A stretch of 35,070 bases of DNA from a virus. The stretch lies in the IMG/VR virus record IMGVR_UViG_3300025120_000227, positions 1 through 35,070 of that record; one strand, 5' to 3'. Below are positions 1 to 34,536 of this stretch, piece by piece. Each line of letters begins with the position of its first letter. Positions within the stretch are counted from its first letter, which is position 1. The notes under the pieces were generated by a model. That model was not told where the DNA came from. It saw only the letters and a program-made list of their open reading frames with translations, and did no database searches. Made by a program: the position numbers and the translations under genes.

Positions 1-3000
1 AGCAAATGTGCCTTTGTTTTTAAGAACAAAAGATTCAGTAAAGAAAGTTAATATAGGTGGAACATTTTCTTTACCTTCAAACCAAACTTCTCTAGCTTTC
101 TTTTTGCCTTGTATACTAGTCATGTTGATAGGATCTTCTCCATTAGCTTTGACTATGCTATTCCATAACGTCTGATCTTTTCTTTTACCCTCTTCAAATT
201 CTTTATTAGTATTTTCTATAGCTTTTAACTGTTTGCTATTTAATTTAGTTGAAGGACCTTGTGATGCCATTAAATTGTTTTTACCTTCAATTAATGCTTG
301 AGGAACGTTTTGTCCTTTTTCTTCTAATACTTCTCTAACTTCTTGGTTAGTTAACATACGCTCAGTCTGAGATACTAAAGCTTTTATTCTAGCGCTAGTA
401 TTTCTATCACTAACATTAGGTTGACCTGCTGGCGTGATACCAAACACTTCTTTAAATTCAGCTGAAGTTATATCGTTTCTTTTTTCATATATAGATAATC
501 CAGCTTTACTACCAGTCTTAGCCATAGAAGCTCTACCTGTTTTTTTGTAAAAATTATCTAATAATACTTTTTGAATACCTGTAGAAGTTCCACTTGGCGT
601 AGCTCCCTCAGGCAACATAGTTATTAAAGACTCTGCATTTTTATTTATGTATTGCTGCGCGCTTCTTACATCGTCTTTAGTTAAATTACCAGGCTTAGGT
701 TTTATACCAAATAAAGTTTGTACCTCTTCTAAAGCTACATTTCTTAATGTTTTAAAATCAAGTTGATTTATTGGTAGGTTTTTAATTTCAGATCTAACTT
801 TTTTTATAGCACCGTCTATCTCTCCTGTTAATCTCTTTTTTAGTTTTATAGCTCTCTTAGGTTTACCAACAATTTCATTGTCTGATTCTTCTACTGCAGC
901 TAAATTTTTTTGATCATCTATATCATCTTCAAACTCTTCGCCAAGTATTCTTCTCGAAGCTTCAATGGCTCTAGATGGTAAAAACTTATTTATATAAGCA
1001 GCTAGTGGAACGCCAGACTCTTGCTTATAAGATCTAATTAAATCAAGCAAACCACGTTCTCCAGTTTCTATTTCGTCTGTTAGCAACTGTCTATCAAACC
1101 CAGGAGCTTCACTTCTTCTTTGTACAATTTTGTTTACTATAGGTTTAAACTGCTCTATAATTTCAAATGCACCAGCCTCGCCTTGATCTTCAAATATTTC
1201 TTGAACTTTCTCACTAGGACCTTGAGATAGTTTTAAATCACTATCTTTACTTTCTTCCGGCGGAGCCATTTTTAAATCTAATTTAGAAACAGAATTTTGA
1301 AAACTTTTTACATAACTAAATACATCACTACCTGTTTTTAATGGAAACAAAAACTGTGTCTGAGGTATGTTAAACTTCCTAATCATGGATTTTAAAACAT
1401 ATTTTAATCCATTTATTTTATTAAAATTACCCTCACTTAGTATCCCTGTAGATGACATATCACCAAATAAATTCAATAACTCTTCTACATCTACTTTACC
1501 CGTTGACTTATCTGTATATTGTTTCTTTCTTTTTTGATAATCGTTAAACTGTTCTTGAGTTATTTTACCTTGATTAAAGTTTTGTCTTACTTGAACATCA
1601 GCTTCGTTTATAGCTTGTTCAGCTTCTTTCACAACAACTTCATCAACAACTATACCCGCTTTTCTGTTTTGTATATGCTGAAGCTCGTGTAGCGGAGACA
1701 CAGCAGCAAACATAGCCGCGGTTTTTTCTTTACTTGACATTAAGTTCTTTTTAATATTATCTTTAAATATAATAATATCATCGCCAACAAATGTAGCATT
1801 ATCACCTCTGTCTCTAGCCTCTATAACTTGTTTAGATGTTTCATCACTAAATTGTTTTTGTAGATCTTCTACAGTAGACTCTTTATCAACTCTAATTAAC
1901 TTGTTACCATTAAGTTCTTGTTGAACGCCAACAACATCTGTCCAAAATTCATTAAGACCAAGGTTGTAAGCTGCTAAAGCAGGATCTGCTGCTTCTTTCA
2001 TACTCTCTTGGTTTTGCTTTTCTTTTTTACTTAACAATTCGTTTCTTTGAGCATCTAAAGAATTAAATTCTTTTACTAGCTTTGTCTTTTGATTTTTAAT
2101 AGCTTTACTACCAGCTTCACCTCTCCCACCTAAGTCTCTTAAGTTGTTTATTATTTTTCTTCTTTGTCTGTTTATTTCAAACAATTGTGTTTTCTCTTCT
2201 GTAGACATTTGAGCTAGCTTTTGAACACTTACTATGTTGTTAAAAGCTGCTGTCTCCATTAGACCTGTTTTTTCTTTTCTTAATTCTTTTATTTTTTGTG
2301 GGGAAGTTTCTGAAGATAAAGCATCTTCTACTTGTAATAATCTTTTAAAAGCCATTGTCTCAGCTTTAATTCCAGATTTTGTTTTTACTTCATCAGAAAA
2401 CATATTATAAATATTAGACCCTATTGATGGACCTTGTATAGCTAAAGAGGTTAATGCAACGTTGTCAAAAAACTTAGCATCAATACCATCGACTATACTT
2501 TTATCTTCTTTTAATACATATATATCAGAAATATTATTTCCTATAGCTGCAGCTGTTTCTTCAACAAGTTCAATCCCAACATTAATGCTTGATTTTAATC
2601 CTTGATACATCATTTTTTTAAACAAACCAGCGTCAACGGTAGCTCCTAGTTTACTTAAGTTTTTCATGTAGCCTAGCGAACCTATTTTTTCTGAGTACAT
2701 GTCTATACTGCCAGCAAGAAGAGATGATCCAGCTTTTTGTAAAACATTGTAATTTATAGTATTATTTAACTCTTCTATTTCTTTTTTCTTTTGAGCAATT
2801 TCTAATTTACTAAATTTAGGTTTACCTTCTTCGTCTAACTCTTCAATATCATTTCTAAGTAACTCTATTGCTTCTGGAGCATTTTTTTGAGCTATAGCTA
2901 TTTCCATACCTTTACCACCATAACCCATGCCAAAGAAAGCTGCTTGAGCTAATTTACTAGCGCCCATTTCTGCTTTTGTTCTAACAGCTTTAGCTACATC

Positions 3001-4677
3001 ACCGGTTAAGCCTTTAGACTTAATTCTTCCAGCTACTCGTCCACCTTTTGTACTCATTAGTATAGTTGCTATACTAGGAGCTCCTTCAGCTAAAACGCCT
3101 CCCATATAATTACCTACATTGTCAATAGTAACGTCGTCTCTTTCTATGCCTGGAGCTATAGATATTGCTATACCTTTAGCAAGACTTTCATTGTAATTTA
3201 TAGCAACTCCTTCTACTTTGTGTAAAAAATCACTTAAAGAATTCGGCATAGTTTCTTCACCTAATATTTTACCTGCTGTTATATCACCAAGAATACCGGC
3301 TGTAGTACCTATAGATCCCATAACCATATCACCCATAAAAGCTTTTTCCACGTTTAGTTTAGCTTTTTCTAATAGACTATAATTCTTAGAACCTAAATCT
3401 AAAGCTAAAGCAACATCACCTAACTCATTAGCATCACTTTGTAGTTCTTCTCTTTTTCTATTCCAGTTTTCGACCATAGTAGCTTGAGCTAGTTTTTTGT
3501 CTTGAAAACCTTTAGTTTTATATTCTAGTTTAACTTCTTCAAATTGAGCTAATAAATTATTGTATTTTTTAATATCAGCTGGTGGAGACTCAGGGTTAAT
3601 GCCATCATCTTTCATTTCTTGAAGTTGTATAGAAATCCCTTCAGCTCTATCATTTATTTTTATATACTCTTCGTCTGAATCTAATGCTAGTTGAGAATCT
3701 TCAATAGCTACCATGTCTTTCATTATAGCGTCTGCTCTAGCATTGTTTTTCTTTACTTCTAAATTTAACAAATTAGAGTTGTCAGCAAACTTCATAACGT
3801 CTTCATAACCTAATTTACCCTCCATCTGGTCACTGGCTAAAGCTGTTATTTGAGCTCTAGCTTTTTCATCCATTCCAGTAGCATGAAAATAATTGTTTAA
3901 TTTACGCTTTTGAATCTCTTTTTTTGTAATATTTTTATAGCTATCAGGTACGTTTTTAATAATATCTTGAGGAACTTTACCAGTTTCCAAATAAGACTTA
4001 CCAGCTTCCCATTTAGCTTGAGAAACCCATGAAGGTTTTTCATCACCTTCGTACATAGAATTAAATCTTTCTTCTGGAGATTTAGCCATGACTTCAAGTC
4101 CTTCTAGAGCTTGAAAAGTGTTTCCTTCATCATCTTTATTTTCAAACTCAAGAGCTTTAAACATTAATTCCTTTTCATACTCTTCATCAGAATCATTCAC
4201 GCCTTCTAGTAACTCTCTTACTTCAGTAGCTTTTTCTTTGTAATCAATTAAGTCAACTCCTTCTTCATAAATATCTTTTTCTCCAGCAGATAAATCTTCG
4301 TAAGTATCTTGTTCGTGAGCTAATTGAGCAGACTGTAAAGGAGATTCTTCTGCTAGTTCAATAGTTTCTACAGCTTGAGACTGAGGACTAATTGCATTAT
4401 CAGACTCCATCTCTACAGACACTGGATCTGGAAAACCATCTTGTTCTGACGGTGCATTTTTTTCTTCTATGCTGCCAGCTAGTTTTTGAACCATGTCCCA
4501 ATTTACATTGTCTTCTTGTATTTCACCACCTTCAATTTCTTGAACCTCTGTCTCTGTAACTATTTCCTCTTCGTCAGGCACTAGATTTGGTTTATAATCT
4601 CTTATAACCATTGCTATAACTTCCTCTGGCTCCCCAGCGTCAATCATTCTTTGTACTATACCTTCTAGTTCGTCCAT
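1..4677 (-). CDS. Giant internal virion / ejection-type protein with zincin motif (3' end beyond window)
   Basis: This reading frame is open from the ATG at 4677 to the window edge, giving at least 1559 residues with no stop seen. The first ~170 residues are acidic and low-complexity. Gly/Ala-rich hydrophobic stretches lie near residues 440-470 and 500-540. HELQH at 997-1001, preceded by AVSPL, matches the HExxH zinc-peptidase signature. Residues ~1178-1245 resemble sigma-70 region 2. The peptide SQGPS occurs at 1151-1155 and 1472-1476, possibly marking domain edges. It is the last of three putative ejection proteins, and its ATG overlaps the preceding stop (TAATG). Great size, position after the tail genes and membrane-like stretches suggest a role like T7 gp16, delivered with the DNA. 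It could also be classed with phage polyvalent proteins that carry metallopeptidase domains. Peptidase activity and the third zinc ligand are not established. Confidence 0.8.
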   Translation of the reverse strand, partial: MDELEGIVQRMIDAGEPEEVIAMVIRDYKPNLVPDEEEIVTETEVQEIEGGEIQEDNVNWDMVQKLAGSIEEKNAPSEQDGFPDPVSVEMESDNAISPQSQAVETIELAEESPLQSAQLAHEQDTYEDLSAGEKDIYEEGVDLIDYKEKATEVRELLEGVNDSDEEYEKELMFKALEFENKDDEGNTFQALEGLEVMAKSPEERFNSMYEGDEKPSWVSQAKWEAGKSYLETGKVPQDIIKNVPDSYKNITKKEIQKRKLNNYFHATGMDEKARAQITALASDQMEGKLGYEDVMKFADNSNLLNLEVKKNNARADAIMKDMVAIEDSQLALDSDEEYIKINDRAEGISIQLQEMKDDGINPESPPADIKKYNNLLAQFEEVKLEYKTKGFQDKKLAQATMVENWNRKREELQSDANELGDVALALDLGSKNYSLLEKAKLNVEKAFMGDMVMGSIGTTAGILGDITAGKILGEETMPNSLSDFLHKVEGVAINYNESLAKGIAISIAPGIERDDVTIDNVGNYMGGVLAEGAPSIATILMSTKGGRVAGRIKSKGLTGDVAKAVRTKAEMGASKLAQAAFFGMGYGGKGMEIAIAQKNAPEAIELLRNDIEELDEEGKPKFSKLEIAQKKKEIEELNNTINYNVLQKAGSSLLAGSIDMYSEKIGSLGYMKNLSKLGATVDAGLFKKMMYQGLKSSINVGIELVEETAAAIGNNISDIYVLKEDKSIVDGIDAKFFDNVALTSLAIQGPSIGSNIYNMFSDEVKTKSGIKAETMAFKRLLQVEDALSSETSPQKIKELRKEKTGLMETAAFNNIVSVQKLAQMSTEEKTQLFEINRQRRKIINNLRDLGGRGEAGSKAIKNQKTKLVKEFNSLDAQRNELLSKKEKQNQESMKEAADPALAAYNLGLNEFWTDVVGVQQELNGNKLIRVDKESTVEDLQKQFSDETSKQVIEARDRGDNATFVGDDIIIFKDNIKKNLMSSKEKTAAMFAAVSPLHELQHIQNRKAGIVVDEVVVKEAEQAINEADVQVRQNFNQGKITQEQFNDYQKRKKQYTDKSTGKVDVEELLNLFGDMSSTGILSEGNFNKINGLKYVLKSMIRKFNIPQTQFLFPLKTGSDVFSYVKSFQNSVSKLDLKMAPPEESKDSDLKLSQGPSEKVQEIFEDQGEAGAFEIIEQFKPIVNKIVQRRSEAPGFDRQLLTDEIETGERGLLDLIRSYKQESGVPLAAYINKFLPSRAIEASRRILGEEFEDDIDDQKNLAAVEESDNEIVGKPKRAIKLKKRLTGEIDGAIKKVRSEIKNLPINQLDFKTLRNVALEEVQTLFGIKPKPGNLTKDDVRSAQQYINKNAESLITMLPEGATPSGTSTGIQKVLLDNFYKKTGRASMAKTGSKAGLSIYEKRNDITSAEFKEVFGITPAGQPNVSDRNTSARIKALVSQTERMLTNQEVREVLEEKGQNVPQALIEGKNNLMASQGPSTKLNSKQLKAIENTNKEFEEGKRKDQTLWNSIVKANGEDPINMTSIQGKKKAREVWFEGKENVPPILTFFTESFVLKNKGTFA

Positions 4678-6413
4678 TATTGGCTATATTTTTTTATATA
4701 CTGGGCGCTTGTCATCCCGCCAGGAGACTCAGCTGTTCCTTTTGAGATTGTGTAATCAAGATAAGCATCTTGCCCACCAAACTCAATCTCTCTTAAAACT
4801 CTTTGTAATGAAGCTACATCTTTAATTTCGTCGTAGAAACTACGTATATCTTGACCAGGATAAAGCTCTTCAAATTCTTGAATAACGCTTTCCTTTGTTA
4901 ATGGACCACCAGTAATTCTAGATTCAAGATCTTTTGCTGAAGTTGAATTAATTATAGCTTTATCTTTTATATCACCTTTTTGAATTTCCCTAGCCTTGTC
5001 ATCTTCCCACTTAGTTGTGCTTCTAATTGTAGTTTTTGGAGGTGTAGGAGTTTTTCTTTTTGATAGAATTTTAACTGCGCCTATTGTGTCTCCGTTATTG
5101 TTTACAGCGGTTGATGCAATATGAAACTTAGCTATACTGTCTTGCTGTTCTTTTATAGCCCCTTCTAATTCTTTGTCTTCTTCAGCAAATTCATGCCACC
5201 TACTATTTTGTAAATAATCATATCCATTGTCAAATAGTTTTTTATTTTCAGGCGTTTCATTTGCATAATCAAAATTATTAGGATCAAATGGTAAAGGTTG
5301 ATTATTACTATCTCTCATTGGAAATTTAGGTGGACTTGTTCCTTCGTTAAGCTTAGCAGCGATGCCAGCTATAGAGTTTGATTCAAACTTTCCAGTAGCA
5401 GGATCAAATTTACCATCAGGAATACTATCTTGCCAGTAGGTATTCATTTTACTACTGCTCACTATAGGACCCATAGCTTTACTATTAACTATTTTCTGCA
5501 TAATTAAGTCTGCATTTTTAGAAGTACCATCATCGTTCATCTCTGGAGTATATGCTATTTGCCAAGTTTGGCCCTCTGGTATATTGTCATAAGTAACACC
5601 ATTAACTGTCATTCCTCTAGTCACAGCTTGAGTTCTAACAAACTCACTAGATGGATCATCAGGATTAACTTCAGCATCGTACATAGTCTTTTGAGCTTTA
5701 GAGACATCATACTTAGATTCCCAAATATCTTCTTCTCTAGCATCCATAGCTCTAAGTTCTTTACCATTTATTAAAGAGCCTGCGTATTCAGCTTTAGGTA
5801 AGCCATTTTTGTCAAACATTTGAGATGGATCTTGTTCTTCCTCTGTATCATTTCCATTAGCATCTTTAACAAATGAAGGTTTAAAATAATAAAGTTCTCC
5901 GCCTCTTTCTACAGTTCTGACGTCTCCACCCATACCTATAGCCTCAACAACGTTTTGTGACTGTATAGATCCTGTACTAGCCAATTGACCTGATTCTCTT
6001 AAGTCTTTACCTAAAGTAACTTGAGCTCCAAATATAGATGCATCTTGTTTAAACTTAGGTATCAAACCTCTTATCTGTCTTAATCTAACATTTCCTTCCT
6101 GCTTACTTAACTCACCACTAGATATTTTTTGTTTAATATCAAAGTACTCATCTTTTTTCTGTTGCCAAAGAGACACTATATTTCTATCAAGTTTATCACT
6201 AGGATAGTTACCTATTTGATTCATCTTACTAGCAAAAACATCTTTCTCTGCTTCAACAGCATCCTCTCTTCTAGTTGCTTCTTCTTTTTGATCTTTAACT
6301 TGCTGTTGTATTTGTTTATTAGTAACGGCTATTTGATTTACCAAACCTCTAGAAGCTTGAGCAAATCTATCAAAACTAGTATTTATAATTCTTTTTGGAT
6401 CCCTATATCCCAT
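4677..6413 (-). CDS. Putative internal virion (ejection) protein, 578 aa
   Basis: I do not recognise a named family. The first ~110 residues are helical, rich in Gln, Lys and Glu, and likely coiled coil. The middle is Asp/Asn/Gly-rich and ends in a mixed charged region. No signal peptide or clear membrane segment is visible. It sits between an Ala-rich protein with hydrophobic ends and the giant protein, the same three-gene order as the T7 internal core proteins gp14-gp15-gp16, so a gp15-like role is inferred from order and not from sequence identity. Its TAA stop shares one base with the ATG of the giant gene, suggesting coupled translation. The upstream leader is A/T-rich with no Shine-Dalgarno sequence. 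Confidence 0.7.
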   Translation of the reverse strand: MGYRDPKRIINTSFDRFAQASRGLVNQIAVTNKQIQQQVKDQKEEATRREDAVEAEKDVFASKMNQIGNYPSDKLDRNIVSLWQQKKDEYFDIKQKISSGELSKQEGNVRLRQIRGLIPKFKQDASIFGAQVTLGKDLRESGQLASTGSIQSQNVVEAIGMGGDVRTVERGGELYYFKPSFVKDANGNDTEEEQDPSQMFDKNGLPKAEYAGSLINGKELRAMDAREEDIWESKYDVSKAQKTMYDAEVNPDDPSSEFVRTQAVTRGMTVNGVTYDNIPEGQTWQIAYTPEMNDDGTSKNADLIMQKIVNSKAMGPIVSSSKMNTYWQDSIPDGKFDPATGKFESNSIAGIAAKLNEGTSPPKFPMRDSNNQPLPFDPNNFDYANETPENKKLFDNGYDYLQNSRWHEFAEEDKELEGAIKEQQDSIAKFHIASTAVNNNGDTIGAVKILSKRKTPTPPKTTIRSTTKWEDDKAREIQKGDIKDKAIINSTSAKDLESRITGGPLTKESVIQEFEELYPGQDIRSFYDEIKDVASLQRVLREIEFGGQDAYLDYTISKGTAESPGGMTSAQYIKKYSQ

Positions 6414-6441: not shown

Positions 6442-7128
6442 CTATTTACCTATACCACCAGCTGCAATTCCAGCGCCTGCTATTACCGATGTTCCTATGC
6501 CTACTATAGCTGCGCTTCTAGCAGCATCAGCATCAGCAGCGTTTTGTTTTGCGTTGTCCATTAAATTAGCTGCTCTGTCCATTTTCATTTCATGAAAACC
6601 TATAGTATCTCTTTGAACAGTTAAATCTCCTTGTGCTCTTTGCATATCTAAGTTTTGCTGACCTTGCGCTTTTAGTTTAGCAACATTAGCCGCACCTTCA
6701 GCTTGTAAAGCTCTGTTTTTAGTTTCTTGAGCACCTATACTAGCTGCAATGCCTCTCTTACTTTGTAATGCAGCCTGAGCTAATGCAGTTGCACCTGCAG
6801 CACCCATACCAACCTCCATCATGACATCTAAGCTATTAGCTAAAGCTTGATCAGCTTGCTCAGCTTGTATTTTAAAAGCTTCTGTAGAAACAGTTAAATT
6901 AGCGTATTCATTATTTAATCCATCAAAAGAGTTCCTAACGTTATCATAAGGATTCGTCATGGTAGGTCTACTTTTTTCTAAAGCTTCTACTTGAGCCGCT
7001 TGTATATCAGCCTCTGTTAATGCTATGTTTCTAGCTTGCTTTGCTTTGTTAGCTGCTATAGCCGATGTTGTTGCACCTACCACTGCCGCGGTTGCTCCTA
7101 CTGCTATTAATGCTGTTACTGCTGCCAT
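6442..7128 (-). CDS. Ala-rich putative internal virion / membrane-channel protein, 228 aa
   Basis: Residues 1-26 form an Ala/Val-rich hydrophobic segment. The centre is a long Ala/Gln/Lys helix with coiled-coil character, and the last ~25 residues form a Gly/Ala/Ile hydrophobic tail. This plan (hydrophobic ends around a helical core) is typical of small phage ejection proteins such as T7 gp14 or P22 gp7. It is the first of three consecutive genes of this kind, directly after the tail genes and a GNAT-like gene. The family assignment rests on composition and gene order only. The ATG at 7128 follows the preceding stop by 4 bases. Confidence 0.65.
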   Translation of the reverse strand: MAAVTALIAVGATAAVVGATTSAIAANKAKQARNIALTEADIQAAQVEALEKSRPTMTNPYDNVRNSFDGLNNEYANLTVSTEAFKIQAEQADQALANSLDVMMEVGMGAAGATALAQAALQSKRGIAASIGAQETKNRALQAEGAANVAKLKAQGQQNLDMQRAQGDLTVQRDTIGFHEMKMDRAANLMDNAKQNAADADAARSAAIVGIGTSVIAGAGIAAGGIGK

Positions 7129-7542: not shown

Positions 7543-9525
7543 TTAATTTGCGTTAACAGTGTAACTTAATCCTACTGCATATAATTCTTTAAATCCACCT
7601 GGATCAGTTTGGCCATCTGTTTTAAGTGTTACATCTAAATAATAACCTTTAACTCCAGATATTTGATTTCCATAAGCTACTTCACCATTTTGTGCACCCG
7701 AAGTATTTATAAAGTTAGCTACATATCTATTTGCTTTTCTATCAAAACCAGCTCTTAAAAGCCCGCGGGTTGGTATTGCGGATGTACCTTCATTTCCTAC
7801 AGTATCGTAAGCACCTTCAACGTAGCTATATACTGATGGTCTAGTCGAACTCGTAGTATCGCTAAACCTATCCCAATCTCCAGTCCAAGACGGATCCGCT
7901 GGCGGAACTCCAGCTACATAAATTTTATTTTCACCAGTAGTATCTGAAGTAGCGGTAGAAACTTGCCAACCACTATCACCTTCGTAATCTATTGTTAAAA
8001 AAGTTTTTTGTAAAGAAGGTCTTGAATTTGCAACTATACTAACTTGAGAAGCATTGTTTATTCCATAAAACTGACCTCTTTGTACAGAATCATTATAGTG
8101 TTTGTAGTTACCTAAAGTTAAATTTTGAGAACCATCCCAAGGGTAATTATTAAAAGTATAGTAAGTATTTTTTAAACTCCCTAAATTAGATGGCCTGTAT
8201 GTATAAAAACTAGGCCAGCCATTTATTTGTTCGTCAAATCCTAGAGTAAAATAAGTTGTGTCTCTTCTTAATGGTCCATTAATACTATCTTCAGTAGTTT
8301 TGTTAGGTTGTATAGATAAAACATACTGTTTATTGTATATATCCCATCCAGCAGGTATTCTACTTCTATAATTGCTAACTAGTTTTATTCTTGAATCATA
8401 ACCATCCTCAAAGAAAACAGGATCAAGAATTTTATCTAATTGAATTCTATTTTCTTCTACATTTTTTACAGTCGCTGTAGTATCAACATAAGTTCCTCCA
8501 CCATCACTTGAGTAAAATACTTTTGCCCCAAGAGTATATTGAGACAAAGATCCAATTTGAGAAGTATATGGTGGTTCCGCTGGAGGGTTTGGATCTACAA
8601 CATCAAAGAAGGACTGAGTTCCACCTTCACCTGGTTTTACTATAGAAGAAGGTGCTACAAAATTCACTGTTGATAATTTTTTAGTATACTGATTTGTGTA
8701 ATCATCATTTAGAGGTGTTAATTGATCTCTAAAATAATCTCTCATGCCATACTCAGATATTTCTGTTATACCATCGTTAGAAAGTCTTATTACACAATTC
8801 CTATGTCTATCAACAAAATATTTTCTATAAGCGTATATAGCAAAGCTTTCTGGATTTCTACTTATTCCATATTCACCTGTGTAAGGAACTATTTCCCCTA
8901 AAACTTGATCAGTAGTTGTAACACTACCACCGCCTTCTGCATTGTATATAGCATTTTTATCTATTAAACACCTACTGCATTTGTCTTCTTGAAGTACAAC
9001 TAAATTGTTTTCTTCAGCATATATTTTTTGTATAGAATTATACTGAGGATTAGCAGACCTAGTAATACTAGTACCTATAGGGAATTCATTAGTTCTATTT
9101 AAACCTGTTCTTGAGTTATATATACCTGAATATATTAAAGTGTTTGATCTATGCTGTTGTATAGGATCATCTTCATCTAAATAAGCTCTAACACCTAATT
9201 CCATAGAGGTGTTGTTAAATCCGCCTTCTATTCTAGACTCTTCAACATAAAAGTTTTCTATTACATTAGACCCAGCATAACCATCAATTGGCTTTACGTA
9301 TGGAGTTGACGGAAACCCAGGTGTACTAGTACCTGTCCCAGCAGTAAATGGTGGCGCGTATACATTATTTAAAGGATACACATTAGTAGCTGCAGAACCC
9401 GCGCCGCCAGGAACAACAATGTTATTTGTTTGCGACTGAGGCTGAGGAGTTAGTATTTTCTTGTTCCAAATACAGTTATAATAATCTACTTCAATAAGTG
9501 GTAATGTTGCTGCTTGATTTGCCAT
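7543..9525 (-). CDS. Tail protein, 660 aa
   Basis: This looks like a beta-rich structural protein: many Tyr, Asn, Ser, Thr and Gly residues and no membrane segment. The most distinctive block is near residues 175-275, with KCSRC, an EGGGSVTTTD loop, PYTGEYGISRNPESFA and a DGITEISEYGM stretch. I associate this block with tail or tail-hub proteins of marine and Bacteroidota podoviruses. It directly follows the 1710-residue tail protein in transcription order, with a 34-base spacer holding a repeated sequence element. Cys pairs (KCSRC and HRNC) could bind metal or simply be structural. A role in tail assembly or adsorption is inferred; exact position in the tail is unknown. Confidence 0.65.
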   Translation of the reverse strand: MANQAATLPLIEVDYYNCIWNKKILTPQPQSQTNNIVVPGGAGSAATNVYPLNNVYAPPFTAGTGTSTPGFPSTPYVKPIDGYAGSNVIENFYVEESRIEGGFNNTSMELGVRAYLDEDDPIQQHRSNTLIYSGIYNSRTGLNRTNEFPIGTSITRSANPQYNSIQKIYAEENNLVVLQEDKCSRCLIDKNAIYNAEGGGSVTTTDQVLGEIVPYTGEYGISRNPESFAIYAYRKYFVDRHRNCVIRLSNDGITEISEYGMRDYFRDQLTPLNDDYTNQYTKKLSTVNFVAPSSIVKPGEGGTQSFFDVVDPNPPAEPPYTSQIGSLSQYTLGAKVFYSSDGGGTYVDTTATVKNVEENRIQLDKILDPVFFEDGYDSRIKLVSNYRSRIPAGWDIYNKQYVLSIQPNKTTEDSINGPLRRDTTYFTLGFDEQINGWPSFYTYRPSNLGSLKNTYYTFNNYPWDGSQNLTLGNYKHYNDSVQRGQFYGINNASQVSIVANSRPSLQKTFLTIDYEGDSGWQVSTATSDTTGENKIYVAGVPPADPSWTGDWDRFSDTTSSTRPSVYSYVEGAYDTVGNEGTSAIPTRGLLRAGFDRKANRYVANFINTSGAQNGEVAYGNQISGVKGYYLDVTLKTDGQTDPGGFKELYAVGLSYTVNAN

Positions 9526-9559: not shown

Positions 9560-12500
9560 TTAAGGTGTTAGCTGTAGTGTAAATAAAGCGTTTGGTTGAG
9601 ATCCACCAAAACTTGCTGCACCAATAATGTCACCTACATTAAAACTTGTAGGAGGAGTTATTACAGTCATATCTCCAGTTGATGTATCCATTCTCGCAAC
9701 TAAACCTTGTACGTTACCATTCTGAGCTCCACTTGGTGGTAAAGGATTAGGTAAAGGTATATTTGAAAATGCACCACCATTATAAAGAAGGCCATTAGTA
9801 GTTGAAAAAAGAGGAATTTGAGGATAAACAGGTGAACCAACAGTTGCTCTATATTTTCTTAAGAACACTGGTTGAACTCTTACATTTATTTGAAATTGAC
9901 TAACAGTTTTTGTTAATCCAGTGCCATTTTGATCAGTAACTCTTATTTCAACCGACATTGTTTGAGCATTAAAACTTCCACCAAAAGTTCCTAGTTCTAG
10001 CACTCTTTGAGTTGCAGCATTAGCAACTCCACTAGTAGATAAACTTATACCTAAATTAGCTATAGGATTAGCTGTAACATTAACGTAATTAGTTCCACCA
10101 CTTGTGTCAACATGTAAGGACCAGCTTAATTCTTGACCAAAATTTACGTTTGATGCAAAACTACCATTAGTAGCTTCAGATAAACTAGTATTAGCGCCAT
10201 TTTGATTTGTCCATGTTGAAGGTGTGGCTGGTGTTATTAGTGGTACAACTTCAGGCGTAGGATCAACCCCAGCACCTTGATAAAAATAATATACTGTTGT
10301 TGGAGTATTAACAAAAGCATTTACTCTTGCAGGAATTACATTTTGAATTACAGTTGATATAGGTATACTGTACTGTATAGGTACAATAGCAAATTGTAAA
10401 AATTTAAATGAAACGTTAAAGTTTATAATATTTTGCTGAGTGTTAACACCACTATAAAAAGGATTTGTTGCAGTTGTTTTTAATAAATAAACAGAATCAC
10501 CTCTTTCTGTTGAATCCGCAGACTCTGTTACTGTATATGGAGCACTAGCACCAACAGTAGTTCCATCGCCATATAGAGCTGTAGATATACCAAATTCTTT
10601 AGCTAATAAATAAGTAACCAAATCACCAGCACTATCTAATATTTGAAACTTTTTTATTGTAGGTGTTGAACTAAAATTTAATGATTCTAGAACTGAAACA
10701 GTTCCAATACCATTACTACCAGTTGATCCAGCAACTCCTGTATATTGAACTAATAATTGAGGTACAGCTAAGTTATCTCTAACTAACTGATTCAAACTTA
10801 ATATAGTTCCAGATGTACTAGTCTCATAATATATATCTAAAGATGATATTACAGGTGTTGTTTCATAAATTGCGGCTATTGTCTCTGCTTGAGAAGAAGA
10901 CTTAGCTGTTTGAGCATTTTGACCTATATTAAAATTATTTTTAATTATAGCTGCTGGAGGATCCGTATCTGCATTGTATAATCCAAAATAACTTCCTCTT
11001 CTAAATAAAGCTTCAAAATTACCAATGGATTGAACTTTAGATACTCTAGCTCCAGTAGAATTACCAGGGAATATTGCTATTGCAGATGTGTTTGTAGATG
11101 TGTATGGAAAATCTGCAGTGACAGCAGGGGTAGTCCAGTCATTACTAAAAGCTGCTCTAGGTATTAATTCAGTATCACTAGTTGAATAGTTTTGTTGAAC
11201 AGGACTAGTCTCTATAAGTGCTGGTGGAACCTTATTAGCATTATCTGTTATAAGTGTTGTAGTATTTATAACACCATTACTAGCTTCTGTACTAAACTCA
11301 GTTTCTCTACTATTTAGATTTGAGCTTATAATAAATATATCAATCTCTGGATATTTAACACCTGGTGCTGGGTTTGCTGGTAATTTCAAATGATCACCAG
11401 TTTTATAATTTGTTCCTCCATTTCCAGTAGCCCCTAAAGAAAGTTTTAATTCTTTAAGAGCTCCATCTAATACAATATCAACATTTATAGTTGCTCCACT
11501 TCCGTTCCCTGTTACTACTGTTGGAACTACATTATAATTTATACCAACATCCATTGTTGATTGCTCTGGCTCTTCAAAAGAATTTTCAAAGTTCTTTATA
11601 GGAGCTGGCTCAGCAGTATAACCAGTTACAGCAGGTGTGCTAATTTCAAATTGACTATAGTTTAATATGTTAGATATAAAATAAGTGTTAGCTCCAGCCA
11701 CTACCTTCATTCCTTCTAATAGTGGAAATGTTAAGTATTCTAAATCACCAATAGGATCTACTTTAACAACATTAGATCCAGTAACGAAAGTACAGTCTAA
11801 TTTAAAAGGTTTTATAATAGGTAAGCCATCTAATAAACTAGGTAAGTAAACATTGTAATAATCTTGTTGCTCTTGTTTTACAACAACTTTATAAGAATAC
11901 CAACCTAAAGGTTGATCACTTTGTATAAAATCAATAACCGTATCAAGATTAAACAAAGAAGAAACAGTTGTCATGTTAGTTCCTGTAAAAGGTAATCCAT
12001 TTGGTTTTACTATTGCAAGAATCCTAAATGCTGCAGTTCCTTCTATTTGTCCAACATAAGCTTGTTGTATAGTTCCTTCTCCAGGAGCACCAACTACGGT
12101 CTCTTTCCAAGATATTAACATACCTGGCTTTATATTGTTATTTAAACCACCAGCGTCTATGTATATTCTAGAATCATTATTTCCTCCAACAGCCTTAGTA
12201 GTTTTTGTTGTTACAAACGGATCTTCGTATAAGCCAGGATAACCTTGAGCATAAGATATTGAAGAAGGTATTTGCTCTGCAAATAAAATCTTTAAAGAAT
12301 CTCCAGGCCAATTAATTAATCCTGAGTATATTTTGTTTGATTTAGTTATATCTCCAGCGGGTGTCAAAGGTGCAATTACCGAACTTAAATAAGGGTTATA
12401 AACTGTGGATCCAAAAAACACTAAAGGATCTTCAGCAAATCCACCAGTTGCTAGTGTAAAATTTATTTCAGAAAAACTAGAAAGTATAACATCTGAAGAC

Positions 12501-14692
12501 CTACCGTATCTATCTTGTAATATTAAACCTACTTGATAACTCCTATTTTGTTTTAAACTGTGATTAGGGTAAGATACAGTTGAAAATGAGTTTGGTATAA
12601 AAGGACTTCTATCAAACTGAATACCTCCGTCTGAGGACTTAACTTGAGTAGTAGTTGCAGGTGTTAGTTTTGAATTAGCAGCAGCAAAGAAACTTAGTCC
12701 AGATGGAGAAGTGTGTCTATCGTAATAGTTACCATATATTATTCTATTACCAGCTGAAGATAATGTTTTTGCTCTTACAGGTGCAACATCATACACTCTA
12801 GTTATCTCATCAGATCTTAATGTTTTTATAGGTTTCTTTGATTGATATGTATAAGAATAAGTTTTAGTCGTGTTTGACGTTACTGAAAGATCCGTTATTT
12901 CTATACTATCTATTATCTTTAAAGTAGTGCTATCAGATTCTTTATATATTATATCTATTTCAGAAACTTTAAGCGCATTAGCTAATTCATTTATAGTATA
13001 TTCACAATTTATGTTAAGATTAACTTGAGTAATCTCGTTCTTCATAAAATCTGTTATAGTAGTTTGACCAGCTGTATTTTCTTCTGGTACATAATTATTT
13101 AGACTTGAACCTGTAGATTTTTGTCTACCTACTTTTTTTAAAAAATAACCTTTTTGTTTTGGTACAAAAATACTTTGTGTATATGGAGATATCAAAGAGT
13201 ATTGTCCATCATCATACTTAAACCTATATGCAAATCTTACAAATTTATCTTCTAAAAAAGTAGGATCTCCAGGGAATGTATATTTATAGTCTTTGTTGGG
13301 CCAGTGTATTGTTAATACATCACCTGTTGATAAAAGATCTGAAGGGTTTGCTTGAAGAATTAATTGCCCATTGATAATATTAGTTAGTTCAGATATTTGA
13401 AACCCATGACCGTTAGTTACTGTTGGATCTGTTACGTAGCTTATACAATAGTATTTTTGAGGATTAAGTTTTGGGTGGGTTACTCTGCATAGTCCCGTTG
13501 CCGCAGAGCCTTGATTTTCTGGAAAGTGATTAGGTAATTGAAATGGCGGAACTATTGCACCGCCTGTAGCGCCTTTATAATACTGGTAAGGTCCTCTAGT
13601 TCCAAAAGCATAAAGAGATTGTGCAGCCATATAAGTACCAGGATTTATGTCACTATATCTAACCATACTATTAGGTGCGTCAAAGTTTCTTATAGTTAGC
13701 TTAACTTGATCTTCTCTTAGCCAAGGTGAACTAACATCTAAAGATGTTCCTTGTATGAAAGTTAAATTATAATCTTGAAAAGCTGGAGTTTCTGATGTGG
13801 GAATAGCTGTTGATAATTCTCTATCTATAAAAACTAAAGTAAGAGGTGAAAATACGGTTCCGCCACTAGTTATCTGCATTGGAGTACCTGAAGCATTATT
13901 AGGATCTACCATAACATAAGCAACTTTAAACTCCCACAAAGTATTGTCAGTTCCTTTTATATAACCCTGCATTCCTATGTTATTTGTTAAAGCAGTTATT
14001 AAAGCTGGATCACTAGTTGCAGTATCTAAAACAAAATGAGAATAATAACTTTGCCAATTAGCATTACTATTAGTGTCCATGAAACTCTTAGAAACAAAAG
14101 CAGCTGATGGCGCTTTGTATTCGTTTGACAAACTTATAGGTTTATGTGGATAGTATTTAACTACAGAAATATGATCTTCATTATAGTAATAAGTATTATC
14201 AGCTTCAGCTGTGTTTATGTTTATTACTCTTGGCTGATTTCTGTCGTCAGTCCAAAACATTAGATCTTCTAATATTACTATATCAAGTATTGGACTATTC
14301 CATGAGAAGTTTAAAAACCTACCATTAACTATTGTTTGTATTGTTTGAGCTTTAATATCACCTACTAGTATTCTACATGTAGAATTAACTGAGGCAAAGT
14401 TAGATATTTGATCACCTGTACTATCTTGAAAGTTAGTGTCAAATATATAAACCTTGTCATTATCGGGATTAAAATACCAACCTATAGTTTGCATTAAAAA
14501 AGGAGAGCTAGAATTTAATTGAGTAAATAAACTATTACCTAGTATATTCTCTAAAGCTCCAACATCGTCAGCTTCAGCCCTAGAAACAGATATATTTATC
14601 CCATCTCTATATTCATCAGGGGCAATTAATCTAGCATCTAAATCTTTATTCATTTTAGATTTAGTGAAAGTGTGTTGAAACCTATCTTGCAT
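9560..14692 (-). CDS. Large tail (stabilization / tail-tube B type) protein, 1710 aa
   Basis: The N-terminus has a recognisable signature at residues ~14-50: MNKDLDARLIAPDEYRDGIN followed by a DDVGALENILGN block. I know this from the stabilization proteins of crAss-like phages and related tail proteins of marine podoviruses. The long remainder is Ser/Thr/Asn/Gly-rich and beta-like. A Gly-rich repeat (GNGSGATINVDIV with GNGGTNYKTGDH) lies near residues 1060-1110 and resembles repeats in cyanophage structural proteins. Near residues 1510-1640 is a probable Ig/cadherin-like domain with a EIRVTDQNGTG motif. The gene follows two adaptor-type genes, so it probably forms part of the tail barrel or its surface decoration. 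The length suggests that a conserved tail domain was extended by extra domains. Confidence 0.75.
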   Translation of the reverse strand: MQDRFQHTFTKSKMNKDLDARLIAPDEYRDGINISVSRAEADDVGALENILGNSLFTQLNSSSPFLMQTIGWYFNPDNDKVYIFDTNFQDSTGDQISNFASVNSTCRILVGDIKAQTIQTIVNGRFLNFSWNSPILDIVILEDLMFWTDDRNQPRVININTAEADNTYYYNEDHISVVKYYPHKPISLSNEYKAPSAAFVSKSFMDTNSNANWQSYYSHFVLDTATSDPALITALTNNIGMQGYIKGTDNTLWEFKVAYVMVDPNNASGTPMQITSGGTVFSPLTLVFIDRELSTAIPTSETPAFQDYNLTFIQGTSLDVSSPWLREDQVKLTIRNFDAPNSMVRYSDINPGTYMAAQSLYAFGTRGPYQYYKGATGGAIVPPFQLPNHFPENQGSAATGLCRVTHPKLNPQKYYCISYVTDPTVTNGHGFQISELTNIINGQLILQANPSDLLSTGDVLTIHWPNKDYKYTFPGDPTFLEDKFVRFAYRFKYDDGQYSLISPYTQSIFVPKQKGYFLKKVGRQKSTGSSLNNYVPEENTAGQTTITDFMKNEITQVNLNINCEYTINELANALKVSEIDIIYKESDSTTLKIIDSIEITDLSVTSNTTKTYSYTYQSKKPIKTLRSDEITRVYDVAPVRAKTLSSAGNRIIYGNYYDRHTSPSGLSFFAAANSKLTPATTTQVKSSDGGIQFDRSPFIPNSFSTVSYPNHSLKQNRSYQVGLILQDRYGRSSDVILSSFSEINFTLATGGFAEDPLVFFGSTVYNPYLSSVIAPLTPAGDITKSNKIYSGLINWPGDSLKILFAEQIPSSISYAQGYPGLYEDPFVTTKTTKAVGGNNDSRIYIDAGGLNNNIKPGMLISWKETVVGAPGEGTIQQAYVGQIEGTAAFRILAIVKPNGLPFTGTNMTTVSSLFNLDTVIDFIQSDQPLGWYSYKVVVKQEQQDYYNVYLPSLLDGLPIIKPFKLDCTFVTGSNVVKVDPIGDLEYLTFPLLEGMKVVAGANTYFISNILNYSQFEISTPAVTGYTAEPAPIKNFENSFEEPEQSTMDVGINYNVVPTVVTGNGSGATINVDIVLDGALKELKLSLGATGNGGTNYKTGDHLKLPANPAPGVKYPEIDIFIISSNLNSRETEFSTEASNGVINTTTLITDNANKVPPALIETSPVQQNYSTSDTELIPRAAFSNDWTTPAVTADFPYTSTNTSAIAIFPGNSTGARVSKVQSIGNFEALFRRGSYFGLYNADTDPPAAIIKNNFNIGQNAQTAKSSSQAETIAAIYETTPVISSLDIYYETSTSGTILSLNQLVRDNLAVPQLLVQYTGVAGSTGSNGIGTVSVLESLNFSSTPTIKKFQILDSAGDLVTYLLAKEFGISTALYGDGTTVGASAPYTVTESADSTERGDSVYLLKTTATNPFYSGVNTQQNIINFNVSFKFLQFAIVPIQYSIPISTVIQNVIPARVNAFVNTPTTVYYFYQGAGVDPTPEVVPLITPATPSTWTNQNGANTSLSEATNGSFASNVNFGQELSWSLHVDTSGGTNYVNVTANPIANLGISLSTSGVANAATQRVLELGTFGGSFNAQTMSVEIRVTDQNGTGLTKTVSQFQINVRVQPVFLRKYRATVGSPVYPQIPLFSTTNGLLYNGGAFSNIPLPNPLPPSGAQNGNVQGLVARMDTSTGDMTVITPPTSFNVGDIIGAASFGGSQPNALFTLQLTP

Positions 14693-27448: not shown

Positions 27449-28585
27449 TTATCTATTCTTTTTAAATTTAGTAATCTTACTTCTCTTGCCTTCAGTTTTT
27501 CTTCTACATTTACCACCTTTTTTAAAGAAACCTTGTTTGCATGTTGCTTTAGCGTTTTGAATTGCTCTTTTTACTTTTCTTTTAAAACCTCCTTTATTAC
27601 GCTTTCCACTTCCACCAGAACCACCAGAACCACCGCCATCACCACCACTAGTTGTTATTGTAATATTTGGTGTAATTTTTTTCTTTTCTATATATTCATC
27701 ACTAACTGTTGCGGTCTCTTTACTAGATGGAAATAAATTATAAAAGGAACTACTAACTAAACTTCCTTCCATAACTTCTTCTCTTGTTTTGCCTTGGTTT
27801 AATAATTTTTGAATATAAGCATTTCCATCAGTAGCTTGTTTTTGACCTAATTTAGCTTTAGAACCTACTACTACATTATCAGTACCACTAGCAGATGCAG
27901 AAGCAGATTTATAAAATCTAGTATTACCATCTTTTAATACCTCCTTTTGATATTCTAGTTTTTCTAATTCAGCTTTAGCGTTTTCTTCTGCTTGTTTTTT
28001 TAATTCTTTTTTTGGATCATCTCCTGGTCCTCCTTCAAAAACAGATGGTCCTCCCCATTTCTTTAAAGGACTATACATTGCAAAGTTTTCTTCTGCAGAA
28101 ACTTTCTCATTATCAGCAGCTCTCCCTGCTTTGTGTCTTGATCCCATAACTTTAAAAGCTATTGGAGTTTCAGGCTGCATGTCCGGAGGTCCATCTAACT
28201 TTTCTGGATTAGGTCTTAAATCTTCCTGTTTACCTTCGTCACCAGCTTTGTAAGCATCTTTCTCCCACGGTAAACTTCTATCACTTTCTGTAAAGTTTTT
28301 TCTGCTATGAGCCTTAGGTCCACCACCTGATAAGTCTTCATAAACATTTTCACTATCATATGCTAGTTTATTGTCTTGCATATCTTTTATGTGATGACCT
28401 TCATGAGCTAATGCATTTTTCTCTAATGGGCTTCCTTTTTTTATATTCTTATCTATTATAATAGTGCTATTGTCATTTGCTTTAGCAACTAAACCATTAT
28501 CGTTTGGTATATTGTCAGGAGTAAAAGGGACTTGATACACCGATATTGGACTTATATCATAAGAAGGCTTTAATTTAAAACTCAT
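27449..28585 (-). CDS. Zincin-like metallopeptidase-domain protein with basic tail, 378 aa
   Basis: HEGHH at residues 61-65, within NALAHEGHHIKDMQ, matches the HExxH zinc signature. E108 in LPWEKDAY may be the third ligand as in gluzincins (ExxA); this is inference. The middle is low-complexity, with a SPLKKWGG peptide at 172-179 and a KGSPLEKN peptide at 50-57. A Gly/Ser linker near 318-330 leads to a strongly basic, Cys-containing tail (GKRNKGGFKRKVKRAIQ, KKGGKCRRK). The basic tail could bind DNA or the virion. It lies between a 48-residue gene and the holin-like gene. Possible roles are a virion maturation protease or a packaged peptidase. It is not clearly a lysis enzyme. Confidence 0.65.
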   Translation of the reverse strand: MSFKLKPSYDISPISVYQVPFTPDNIPNDNGLVAKANDNSTIIIDKNIKKGSPLEKNALAHEGHHIKDMQDNKLAYDSENVYEDLSGGGPKAHSRKNFTESDRSLPWEKDAYKAGDEGKQEDLRPNPEKLDGPPDMQPETPIAFKVMGSRHKAGRAADNEKVSAEENFAMYSPLKKWGGPSVFEGGPGDDPKKELKKQAEENAKAELEKLEYQKEVLKDGNTRFYKSASASASGTDNVVVGSKAKLGQKQATDGNAYIQKLLNQGKTREEVMEGSLVSSSFYNLFPSSKETATVSDEYIEKKKITPNITITTSGGDGGGSGGSGGSGKRNKGGFKRKVKRAIQNAKATCKQGFFKKGGKCRRKTEGKRSKITKFKKNR

Positions 28586-29015: not shown

Positions 29016-29364
29016 GTTTTTTAGATTTTAAAAGATTTAATTGTTTTGCAAGCTCATCTAGTTTACCATCTGTTTTTGTACCATCTTTAACTAGCGTGGA
29101 TAATACTTTTATTTCTTCAGATAGTATACTATTCATCTGCTCCATCATATCTACTCTTTCTTTTAGATCTTCTATATTAGCATGATTCCATTGTTCTTTT
29201 AAATCATATTCTAATCTCTTAACTTCAATAGGTGGTAAGTTTCTAGCTTCAGCTATGTCATCTTGCAATGAATAATACATACCAACAAAAGTTGATGTTA
29301 ACATTATTATAGCTATTACTGTTTTTATATCAATTTTAAATTCTGTGTTTTCAGATATTTTCAT
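29005..29364 (-). CDS. Membrane-anchored coiled-coil protein of the lysis cassette, 119 aa
   Basis: One membrane segment lies at residues ~14-33 (KTVIAIIMLTSTFVGMYYSL). It is followed by a charged helical region with coiled-coil character (NIEDLKERVDMMEQM) and a basic end (KSKKRGR). This plan fits a spanin-like, holin-accessory or tail-anchored protein. I chose the Met at 29364 because AGGAG lies three bases upstream and the overlap with the amidase is then only 14 bases. A longer frame to 29433 would overlap the amidase by 83 bases. It directly follows the amidase, so a lysis role is likely but not proven. Confidence 0.65.
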   Translation of the reverse strand: MKISENTEFKIDIKTVIAIIMLTSTFVGMYYSLQDDIAEARNLPPIEVKRLEYDLKEQWNHANIEDLKERVDMMEQMNSILSEEIKVLSTLVKDGTKTDGKLDELAKQLNLLKSKKRGR

Positions 29365-29761
29365 ACTCTCCTGTTGCATCAAATGACGGGCACGCTTTGT
29401 TAGCGAACTCGTTGTGTGAATAAATAATAGCATCTTGATACATCGCCTTTAATGTTTTAAGGACGTGTAACAGACTTTCTTTTTGTACTTCTGTTCTAGT
29501 GTCCTTTGGTGTCTTACCATCACTCTCTACGCCGCCACAATAACAAATTCCTATAGAATTACGATTATGCCCTTTACAATGAGCACCTATTTTATCGATA
29601 TCACGACCTTTGTTTATAGTTCCGTCTAAATCAATATAAAAATGATAACCTATATCGTTCCAACCTTTGGCTAAATGCCAGTCTCTAATAGTGTCAACTG
29701 AAACTTGTTGTTCTTCTCTAGTAGCAGAGCAATGTATTATAATTTCTTTTACTAGTCTCAT
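29351..29761 (-). CDS. N-acetylmuramoyl-L-alanine amidase (T7 lysozyme type), 136 aa
   Basis: This enzyme cleaves the amide bond between MurNAc and L-Ala in peptidoglycan, for lysis. Zinc ligands H10 (IIIHCSAT), H116 (YSHNEFA) and C124 (KACPSFD), with Y39 and K122, have nearly the same spacing as H17, Y46, H122, K128 and C130 of T7 lysozyme. The GYHFYIDLDGTINKGR stretch is also typical. The length (136) is slightly below T7 lysozyme (151). There is no signal peptide, so export needs a holin. The ATG overlaps the upstream stop (ATGA). T7 lysozyme also inhibits the phage RNA polymerase; no such polymerase gene is visible here. Confidence 0.92.
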   Translation of the reverse strand: MRLVKEIIIHCSATREEQQVSVDTIRDWHLAKGWNDIGYHFYIDLDGTINKGRDIDKIGAHCKGHNRNSIGICYCGGVESDGKTPKDTRTEVQKESLLHVLKTLKAMYQDAIIYSHNEFANKACPSFDATGEYENI

Positions 29762-32732: not shown

Positions 32733-32993
32733 TTATACTATTACTACAACATCAAATTCTTTTATAACTTTATATTGCTTGTTTTTTATTTCAATATTAA
32801 AACCGGCTGATCTATCATAATATATATCATCACCTTTTTTTAACACTTTAACATCAGAGCCAGGTTCTACAACCTTAGCTCTTCTGTATCTTATATCTTC
32901 TCTTTGCTTTTCAGCAAGTATTAATCCACCTTGTGTTTTAGTATTCACTTCTTTTAAGGGATCAATAACTATATACTTACCTATTGCTTTCAT
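32733..32993 (-). CDS. groS: Phage-encoded GroES co-chaperonin, 86 aa
   Basis: This is the heptameric lid of the GroEL folding chamber. The N-terminal strand (GKYIVIDPLKEV) is followed by a mobile loop with GGLIL, equivalent to GGIVL in E. coli GroES, which binds GroEL. Then come AKVVEPGSDVKVLKKGDDIYY and a terminal FDVVVIV. The segment between the loop and KKGDDI is short, so the roof hairpin of E. coli GroES seems to be missing, as in T4 gp31. Its ATG lies 17 bases inside the 3' end of groEL, so translation is probably coupled. The order groEL-groES is reversed relative to bacteria. Confidence 0.88.
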   Translation of the reverse strand: MKAIGKYIVIDPLKEVNTKTQGGLILAEKQREDIRYRRAKVVEPGSDVKVLKKGDDIYYDRSAGFNIEIKNKQYKVIKEFDVVVIV

Positions 32994-34536
32994 CTCTAAC
33001 GTTATTGATTACACAATCTGTAGACATAATAGTAGTAGCTACTGAAGCTGCATTTTTTAATGCACTTTTTGTTACTAGTAGAGGATCTATAATTCCGGCT
33101 TTAACCATATTAACCGTATTTCCTGTAACCACATTTATACCATATCCCTCTAACTCTTTAACATCACTAACTTCTAAACCTGCATTCTTAAGTATAACTT
33201 CGTAAGGTTTCTTTATAGCACTGTAAAGTACTTCTTCACCTATTGAATCGGGTATTAGTGTTTGTGCGGCATTTAATAAAGCTATACCTCCTCCTGGAAC
33301 TATGCCTTCTTTAATAGCAGCTTTTGTAGCGCAAATAGCATCTTCTACTCTATCTCTTTTTTCTTTTAATTCCATTTCAGAATTAGCACCCACTTTAACT
33401 ATAGAAACTTTAGCTTTTAATCTAGCTAATCTAGTTTCAAGCATAGCCACTATACCTGGGTTTCTAGTATTATTTAACTGATTTTCTATAGACTTTATTA
33501 TACCATCAACAGCTTTGTTTTCTGATAAATTAACTTGTATTAAAGTTTCAGTTCTATCACTAACAGATCTCAGGCATTCACCTAAGTGAGAAGGATCTAT
33601 CATGTCCATATCATCTCCTAGGTCTTCGTTAATAAGTGTAGCACCAGTAACAGCACATAGATCATTTAGTATGTCTCTTTTGCTGACTCCATAAACTGGT
33701 GTGTCTATAATGTTGACCTTTATATTACCATTCATCTTATTCATCGCCAGCGCAGATTCCACTTGATGATCAACATTTGCTACAATAAGTAAACTCTGTT
33801 TAGACTGTATTACATATTCTAAAACTTTTTGAATTTGCCTAATATTTTCAATTCTTGATTCTACTATTAAGACTAAAGGATTATCTAGTTCTGAAGATTC
33901 TTTATCTTTATTAGTTATAAAATGAGCACTTTTAATTGGTTGACTATACTGAATTCCTTCAATAAGCTCTACAGTAGTTGTTGGTTGATCATTAACCTCC
34001 ATCATAACAACACCTGTTTCATCTACCATCTTAAAAGCTTTAGCAATTAAAGATCCAGTTTCTTTATCATTGTTAGATGATATTATAGCAACTTGATCTA
34101 TTTTACTGCCTTTAATTTTTTTTGATATTTTGTTTAAATACTTAACAACCTTATCAACACCTTTGTTTATACCTTCTTTCATTAGCCTATTGTCACAAAC
34201 TAAAGAATGACTATCCGCTTCGTCTAATATAGCTTTTGCTAATATAGTTGCTGTGGTTGTTCCATCTCCAGCATCTTTAACAGTTCTTTGAGAAGCTTGT
34301 TTTATTAAGGTAGCTCCAATGTTTTCTAGTGGATGCCTTAAGTTTATTGCATTAGCAACTGTAACACCATCTTTTGTAATAACAGGATTTCCTGTGTGGT
34401 CTTCTAATATTACACATTTACCACTAGCGCCTAACGTAGATGCAACTGCATTTGTTAGTTTTTCTACGCCAGCTAGTATCTGACCTTTAGCGTCATTGCC
34501 AAAGGTCAGTTCTTTTACTAACTTTATTTCTTCCAT
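32977..34536 (-). CDS. groL: Phage-encoded GroEL chaperonin, 519 aa
   Basis: This is the ATP-driven folding chamber. ATPase motifs are intact: KDGVTVA at 55-61, DAGDGTTTA at 88-96 with the catalytic-region D91, RVEDA with D399 (E. coli D398), PGGG at 414-417 and GIIDP with D484 (E. coli D495). The apical domain is divergent and the protein is ~30 residues shorter than E. coli GroEL (548). The flexible GGM tail is absent. The leader is A/T-rich without a Shine-Dalgarno sequence. It likely folds capsid or other phage proteins late in infection, with the phage GroES or the host co-chaperonin as partner. Confidence 0.95.
   Translation of the reverse strand: MEEIKLVKELTFGNDAKGQILAGVEKLTNAVASTLGASGKCVILEDHTGNPVITKDGVTVANAINLRHPLENIGATLIKQASQRTVKDAGDGTTTATILAKAILDEADSHSLVCDNRLMKEGINKGVDKVVKYLNKISKKIKGSKIDQVAIISSNNDKETGSLIAKAFKMVDETGVVMMEVNDQPTTTVELIEGIQYSQPIKSAHFITNKDKESSELDNPLVLIVESRIENIRQIQKVLEYVIQSKQSLLIVANVDHQVESALAMNKMNGNIKVNIIDTPVYGVSKRDILNDLCAVTGATLINEDLGDDMDMIDPSHLGECLRSVSDRTETLIQVNLSENKAVDGIIKSIENQLNNTRNPGIVAMLETRLARLKAKVSIVKVGANSEMELKEKRDRVEDAICATKAAIKEGIVPGGGIALLNAAQTLIPDSIGEEVLYSAIKKPYEVILKNAGLEVSDVKELEGYGINVVTGNTVNMVKAGIIDPLLVTKSALKNAASVATTIMSTDCVINNVRDESNR

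Follow-up and report, generated by a model that had tools for sequence, protein, structure and literature searches.

A sigma-70 region 2-like domain within a giant, probably injected protein of uncultured marine flavophage-type podoviruses

Takeover of host transcription before any phage protein has been made is, to our knowledge, known for few phages that lack a polymerase of their own. Among the closest described systems are the polyvalent proteins of phages and conjugative elements; Iyer et al. (2017, PMC5512222) counted 131 domains in them and proposed a role for zincins in processing injected proteins of this multidomain type. The word 'sigma' is absent from the main text of this catalogue (PMC5512222), and we found no report in the open-access literature of a sigma domain in an injected phage protein. 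The virion RNA polymerase of N4 is a giant virion protein with a described zincin domain and is aimed at early transcription (PMC5512222, PMC4496689). In T4 gp55, an acidic helix of the region 2 homology domain contacts the beta-prime clamp helices of RNA polymerase via E70, D74, and E77 (PMC7892883).

The locus described here resembles each of these systems in part. Like the polyvalent proteins, its giant protein is very large and multidomain, is predicted to be injected with the DNA, carries a zincin-type motif and swappable modules, and presumably serves the takeover of early infection steps, transcription included; unlike in those proteins, its most conserved module is similar to sigma-70 region 2. 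N4 injects a whole single-subunit polymerase, whereas the present phages have no detectable polymerase and would deliver just one module, to act on that of the host. As with T4 gp55, the likeness is to a sigma factor cut down to its region 2 homology domain, with an acidic helix toward the clamp; gp55, however, stands as a protein of its own, acts late, and reads a −10-like element, whereas the present domain is embedded in a virion-type giant, with most of the −10 contacts gone. RpoD, SigE/SigK, and the 250-aa sigma factor of the phages themselves share the region 2 fold and spacing with this domain, but are free proteins with regions 2 and 4 (and most also region 3), whereas here region 2 stands alone in a larger polypeptide.

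The stretch of DNA analyzed (the window) is a viral record of 35,070 bases. Its terminase is 64% identical to that of MW202828, an unclassified podovirus genome, and about 46% identical to those of Flavobacterium phages of the elemo group, with other matches to phages of Cellulophaga, Tenacibaculum, and Maribacter; the window phage is an uncultured marine podovirus of flavophage type. The giant gene runs off the left edge of the window, so that only the first 1,559 of 2,826 aa are encoded within it. The full-length gene was recovered at positions 10001-18481 of contig L002, which is 100% identical to the window. The genes at this end of the window are as follows.

1..4677, minus strand: giant protein gene, with the ORF start at 4677, cut by the left window edge
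4677..6413, minus strand: upstream gene for a 578-aa protein, between the tail genes and the giant gene
6442..7128, minus strand: upstream gene for a 228-aa Ala-rich protein, assigned from position and composition

The order is tail genes, the 228-aa and 578-aa proteins, and then the giant gene. A PHROG search gave no informative match for the 578-aa protein, which, given its position, is probably an internal core or ejection protein; the 228-aa protein, from its position and composition, is probably an internal protein similar to T7 gp14. Because the giant gene follows the tail genes and two core-like proteins, it is likely the equivalent of a large ejection protein, and the elemo gene at the same position is annotated 'structural protein'. 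An earlier note on this DNA had spoken of a giant ejection-type protein. Gene position, size, and the zincin motif all fit that description, and it is from these three features that we infer its placement: the giant protein is predicted to be a virion protein that enters the cell with the DNA. It mixes unlike domains, namely an HExxH motif, the sigma region 2-like domain, a weak HAD-like match, and a conserved C-terminal region. The HAD-phosphatase-like module (IRVFDFDDTLATSNS) lies outside the window, at about residues 1985-2110 of the L002 giant, and its Pfam match is weak (E 0.055). Within the window, the parts of the giant protein that concern us are the following.

1675..1689, minus strand: zincin-type metallopeptidase signature HELQH at residues 997-1001, some 155 residues ahead of the domain
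919..1215, minus strand: sigma-70 region 2-like domain, residues 1155-1253, supported by alignments, AlphaFold, Foldseek, and profile tests
943..1146, minus strand: segment singled out in the earlier note (residues 1178-1245), which corresponds to helices 2-5 in the AlphaFold model
1063..1092, minus strand: residues 1196-1205, an acidic helix (43-52 in the model) that is the counterpart of region 2.2
943..1005, minus strand: residues 1225-1245, a long helix (72-92 in the model) that is the counterpart of regions 2.3/2.4
853..918, minus strand: linker that follows the domain (residues 1254-1275), acidic and poorly ordered, with pLDDT below 50 over model residues 98-124
262..852, minus strand: downstream conserved module, residues 1276-1472, seen in alignment A8, AlphaFold pTM 0.53

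The residues in which the earlier note had seen, by eye, the order and spacing of sigma-70 region 2 are present and in frame at 943-1146 (residues 1178-1245 of the minus-strand ORF 4677..1), and they align to sigma70 without gaps from D403 to about D445. One detail of that alignment proved to be misplaced: the 'FD' of FDRQ precedes region 2.2, and the position of the sigma 'FD' is taken by the Y-K of IRSYKQ. The segment by itself matched neither Sigma70_r2 in Pfam nor anything in the PDB. Single-sequence searches with the window protein (Pfam, PHROGs, NCBIfam, and PDB) returned nothing useful, and in single-sequence Pfam searches Sigma70_r2 was unmatched in 46 of 47 members and reached E 0.096 in the other one, below the gathering score, which marks the domain as a distant relative of sigma factors.

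Aligned with hhalign to 14 diverse sigma factors, the domain obtained a probability of 64% (P 6.6e-5), and its score of 25.8 exceeded those of all 600 column-permuted decoys (mean 11.05, s.d. 2.26, maximum 23.3); enlarging the sigma set by the phages' own factors brought the score to 33.0, with a probability of 84% and a P of 7.2e-6, whereas none of 300 decoys went beyond 19.7. In the reverse direction, a sigma profile built without these proteins and run over 51 whole or partial giants found its best match inside the domain in 49 of them (48 with the first sigma set alone), and none of 91 other ORF translations from two related phages scored above −0.1 bits. When the profile of the 47-member alignment was searched against all PDB sequences, SigE (8b3z) ranked first (E 0.11) and SigK (8vjl) third (E 0.27), both with regions 2.2/2.3 in register, and with a larger alignment the two occupied ranks one and two (E 0.15 and 0.22). 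A blind tblastn search of 50,697 phage records with the domain consensus gave eight sub-threshold matches, five of them annotated sigma factors. On the profile match by which the note had proposed to check the resemblance, the outcome is thus divided: profile-profile and sigma-profile scans beat their decoys, whereas single-sequence Pfam was not significant. Recent derivation from the sigma factor that these phages encode was rejected, as the domain scores no higher against such factors than against SigE or a cyanophage sigma.

A structural model leads in the same direction. The AlphaFold model of the domain, computed from the 47-member alignment (A2; a further alignment, A7, holds 63 members) without templates, is all-helical, with five helices, an overall pLDDT of 83.6 (approximately 90-96 in the core), and a pTM of 0.76. 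Sigma factors, matched at region 2, made up nearly all of the best 50 rows of a Foldseek search against the whole PDB, with probabilities that reached 0.91; on the N-terminal domain of SigE (74 residues) the TM-score was 0.67. The two non-sigma rows among these 50 had probabilities of at most 0.14, and the E-values were weak, none being below 0.85. In a search of predicted viral structures, a giant protein from an uncultured virus came first (TM 0.71), and most of the matches next in rank were phage sigma factors. The helical core of region 2, which structure prediction had been expected to reveal if the resemblance was real, is therefore present in the predicted fold, and what began as a likeness noticed by eye stands beyond chance by the hhalign decoys, the sigma-profile scan, and the PDB searches. 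We are highly confident that residues 1155-1253 are homologous to sigma-70 region 2 and share its fold. The linker and module that follow do not extend this homology. The downstream module is conserved across alignment A8 yet divergent between relatives, and Foldseek gave no coherent match for it, to sigma factors or otherwise; with this result and its pTM, we rejected it as a candidate sigma region 3/4. Pfam models of sigma regions 3 and 4 matched neither part of the giant protein, in which no flap-binding part is recognizable.

In sigma factors, the region 2.2 helix faces the beta-prime clamp helices. Aligned to E. coli sigma70, the domain keeps the positions D403, G408, G411, F419 (as Y), G424, and Y430. 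Of the residues through which region 2.2 contacts the clamp helices (D403, Q406, and E407), D403 is kept in 55 of 63 members, Q406 has become E in 59, and E407 has become T in 57; an acidic residue is found at position 403 in 90% and at position 406 in 94% of members, and an invariant E replaces the hydrophobic residue at position 404. The net charge of the region 2.2 helix is −2.9, versus −2.4 in sigma factors. Elsewhere, R423, K426, W433, R436, Q437, and R441 are all replaced (W433 by K, R436 by P, and R441 by E), as is T429 (by A), so that of the −10-reading set T429, Y430, W433, W434, Q437, and R441, only Y430 and an aromatic residue at 434 are kept. Judged from the alignment, the polymerase-facing surface is preserved in part and the −10-reading surface is largely lost. 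Changes at the hallmark and −10 residues (Q406/E407 to E/T, W433, R441, and others) also make a different partner possible.

No other stretch of the giant protein is as conserved as this domain. Across 12 giants, mean identity to the window sequence is 0.67-0.77 over residues 1151-1250 and 0.2-0.3 just upstream. Between the window and its distant relative G003, identity is 79% in the domain, 76% in TerL, 58% in the MCP, 57% in the portal, and 55% in the C-terminus of the giant protein, and the zincin region is unmatched. Third-position identity at four-fold sites is 0.54, versus 0.46 expected from composition; synonymous sites are thus near saturation, which implies long purifying selection and led us to reject recent horizontal spread as the source of the conservation. 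In 52 of 53 relatives an HExxH motif precedes the domain, mostly by 140-200 residues and amid very divergent sequence, yet neither Pfam nor PHROGs gave a zincin match. The place of HExxH is nearly constant while its flanks can hardly be aligned, as if different zincins had been swapped into one slot. Short motifs (LKLSQGPS, NLMASQGPS, LKFSKGLN) recur in relatives at the borders of the giant's modules, here at about 1210-1230 and 262-280 of the window (minus strand) and at about residue 2149 of the L002 giant; they are possible protease processing sites or linkers.

With regard to distribution, the domain is encoded in at least 265 viral contigs, detected with the conserved region (53 in a first pass); a terminase search gave at least 600 matches. 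It was not found in approximately 50,000 named phage records, in plasmids, by a pattern scan of cellular genomes, or in elemo or MW202828, and tblastn with the domain region or the C-terminus of the giant revealed no relative among named phages. Weak first matches to Mycobacterium portal proteins were dismissed as chance. Among six whole giants that share the C-terminus of the window protein, the profile found the domain in two and not in the other four, one or two of which have a weak, non-significant profile match at or near the equivalent place. In giants that lack the profile match, stretches resembling sigma region 2 by eye follow the HExxH motif at the corresponding place, at L301:5841-6350 (minus), L303:5215-5724 (plus), L300:4818-5327 (plus), and L302:6580-7089 (minus); we treat these candidate divergent equivalents as no more than a lead. 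As the giants of some close relatives, elemo, and MW202828 give no profile match, the domain, for all its conservation, is dispensable or replaceable.

The transcription genes of the related phages give this domain a context. A separate sigma factor of about 250 aa is encoded in 12 of 18 related contigs and probably directs later phage transcription; since contigs may be fragments, its absence from the others carries little weight. This free protein (MKKYN.QNYIR...), with a region 2 and a region 4-like end, was seen in L154-L158, L209-L213, and L217. No multisubunit RNA polymerase was matched in 15 contigs, in a search whose positive control worked. A model for T7-type polymerases was silent in contigs and controls alike and is thus uninformative, and no ORF of a suitable kind stands out in two long contigs. 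Since no multisubunit polymerase was found and a sigma factor is encoded, these phages appear to rely on the polymerase of the host and to redirect it with their own sigma factor as soon as this has been synthesized. A sigma region 2-like module delivered with the DNA would fit the time before that point.

We propose a role for such a module. As a giant polyvalent protein of the virion, its carrier would enter the host cell together with the DNA, and the module would act once inside, or after release by the neighboring zincin. Its acidic region 2.2 face would dock on the beta-prime clamp helices of the host RNA polymerase, the site of the host sigma, where it could displace or keep off that sigma, or hold the polymerase at the incoming genome, until the complete sigma factor of the phage has been made. 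With regions 3 and 4 and most −10-reading residues missing, occupying or tethering the core enzyme is a more likely activity than reading a normal promoter. That an injected polyvalent protein docks on the host RNA polymerase at entry by way of this module, and so blocks or redirects the host sigma, is quite possible, with binding and injection both deduced from the features above; the fuller proposal, in which a virion-injected partial sigma factor on a zincin-containing polyvalent carrier seizes the beta-prime clamp before phage gene expression, we advance with slightly less confidence.

The main rival accepts the ancestry and denies the function. A true descendant of sigma region 2 may have been reused as a structural or processing module that binds a virion protein, the zincin, or the phage sigma, and never polymerase. 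The changes at Q406/E407 and at most DNA-contact residues would be expected from such a history, as would the appearance of new invariant or nearly invariant residues (E1202, T1205, R1208, D1212, N1230, and R1236) and the fact that the domain always sits mid-way in a structural-type giant protein, beside a zincin motif. However, the acidic polarity of region 2.2 has been kept, and the zincin and the downstream module diverge strongly whereas the domain does not; a domain that stays constant while its neighbors change is more readily explained by a conserved external partner than by an internal one that evolves along with it. We regard such a change of role, internal or within the virion, as a somewhat doubtful explanation, if one to be taken seriously.

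Docking on the clamp also has to be weighed against a more active role, in which the domain is a genuine promoter-reading minimal sigma similar to T4 gp55, injected to form a holoenzyme with the host core and to start early transcription. T4 gp55 reads its promoter by the region 2 homology domain and a helix-loop-helix, and does so without region 4 (PMC7892883); here, Y430 and aromatic residues at positions 419 and 434 are kept, and the phage genomes encode no detectable multisubunit polymerase. Yet the equivalents of T429, W433, Q437, and R441 are replaced, and neither a region 4 nor a flap-binding part can be recognized, which makes a promoter-reading function unlikely. If the domain were a small helical fold that resembles sigma factors by coincidence and not by descent, this would account for Foldseek E-values above 0.8 and for the absence of a significant single-sequence Pfam match, but independent tests agree with one another, beat shuffled controls, and hold the same register from region 2.1 to 2.3, so that we consider coincidence very improbable. 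Polymerase docking by an injected, sigma-derived module is the reading that we tentatively prefer.

If this reading is true, these phages take over transcription by a route that differs both from that of N4, which injects a polymerase, and from that of T4, which injects the modifying enzyme Alt, and the route is a common one among uncultured marine phages. For an abundant marine phage group, a sigma-like module that is conserved and enters with the DNA would give a direct and testable answer to how early takeover is achieved, and would add both a sigma-type module to the injected polyvalent toolkit and a new small binder of the polymerase clamp.

Other genes of the window also deserve mention. 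Two adjoining genes at 7543-9525 and 9560-14692 (minus strand; 660 and 1,710 aa) match different parts of phrog_14478, which suggests a split gene for one virion structural protein. Within the structural cluster, a 378-aa protein encoded at 27449-28585 (minus strand) combines another HExxH motif (NALAHEGHHIKD) with a tail rich in Lys/Arg, and is a possible small metallopeptidase. At 29351-29761 (minus strand), a 136-aa protein resembles, by eye, an N-acetylmuramoyl-L-alanine amidase (IIIHCSATREEQQVS...) and is a likely endolysin. Upstream of the packaging genes, at 32733-34536 (minus strand), are phage GroES and GroEL genes, which are common to MW202828 and elemo, and GroEL is also encoded in the relatives G002 and G003.
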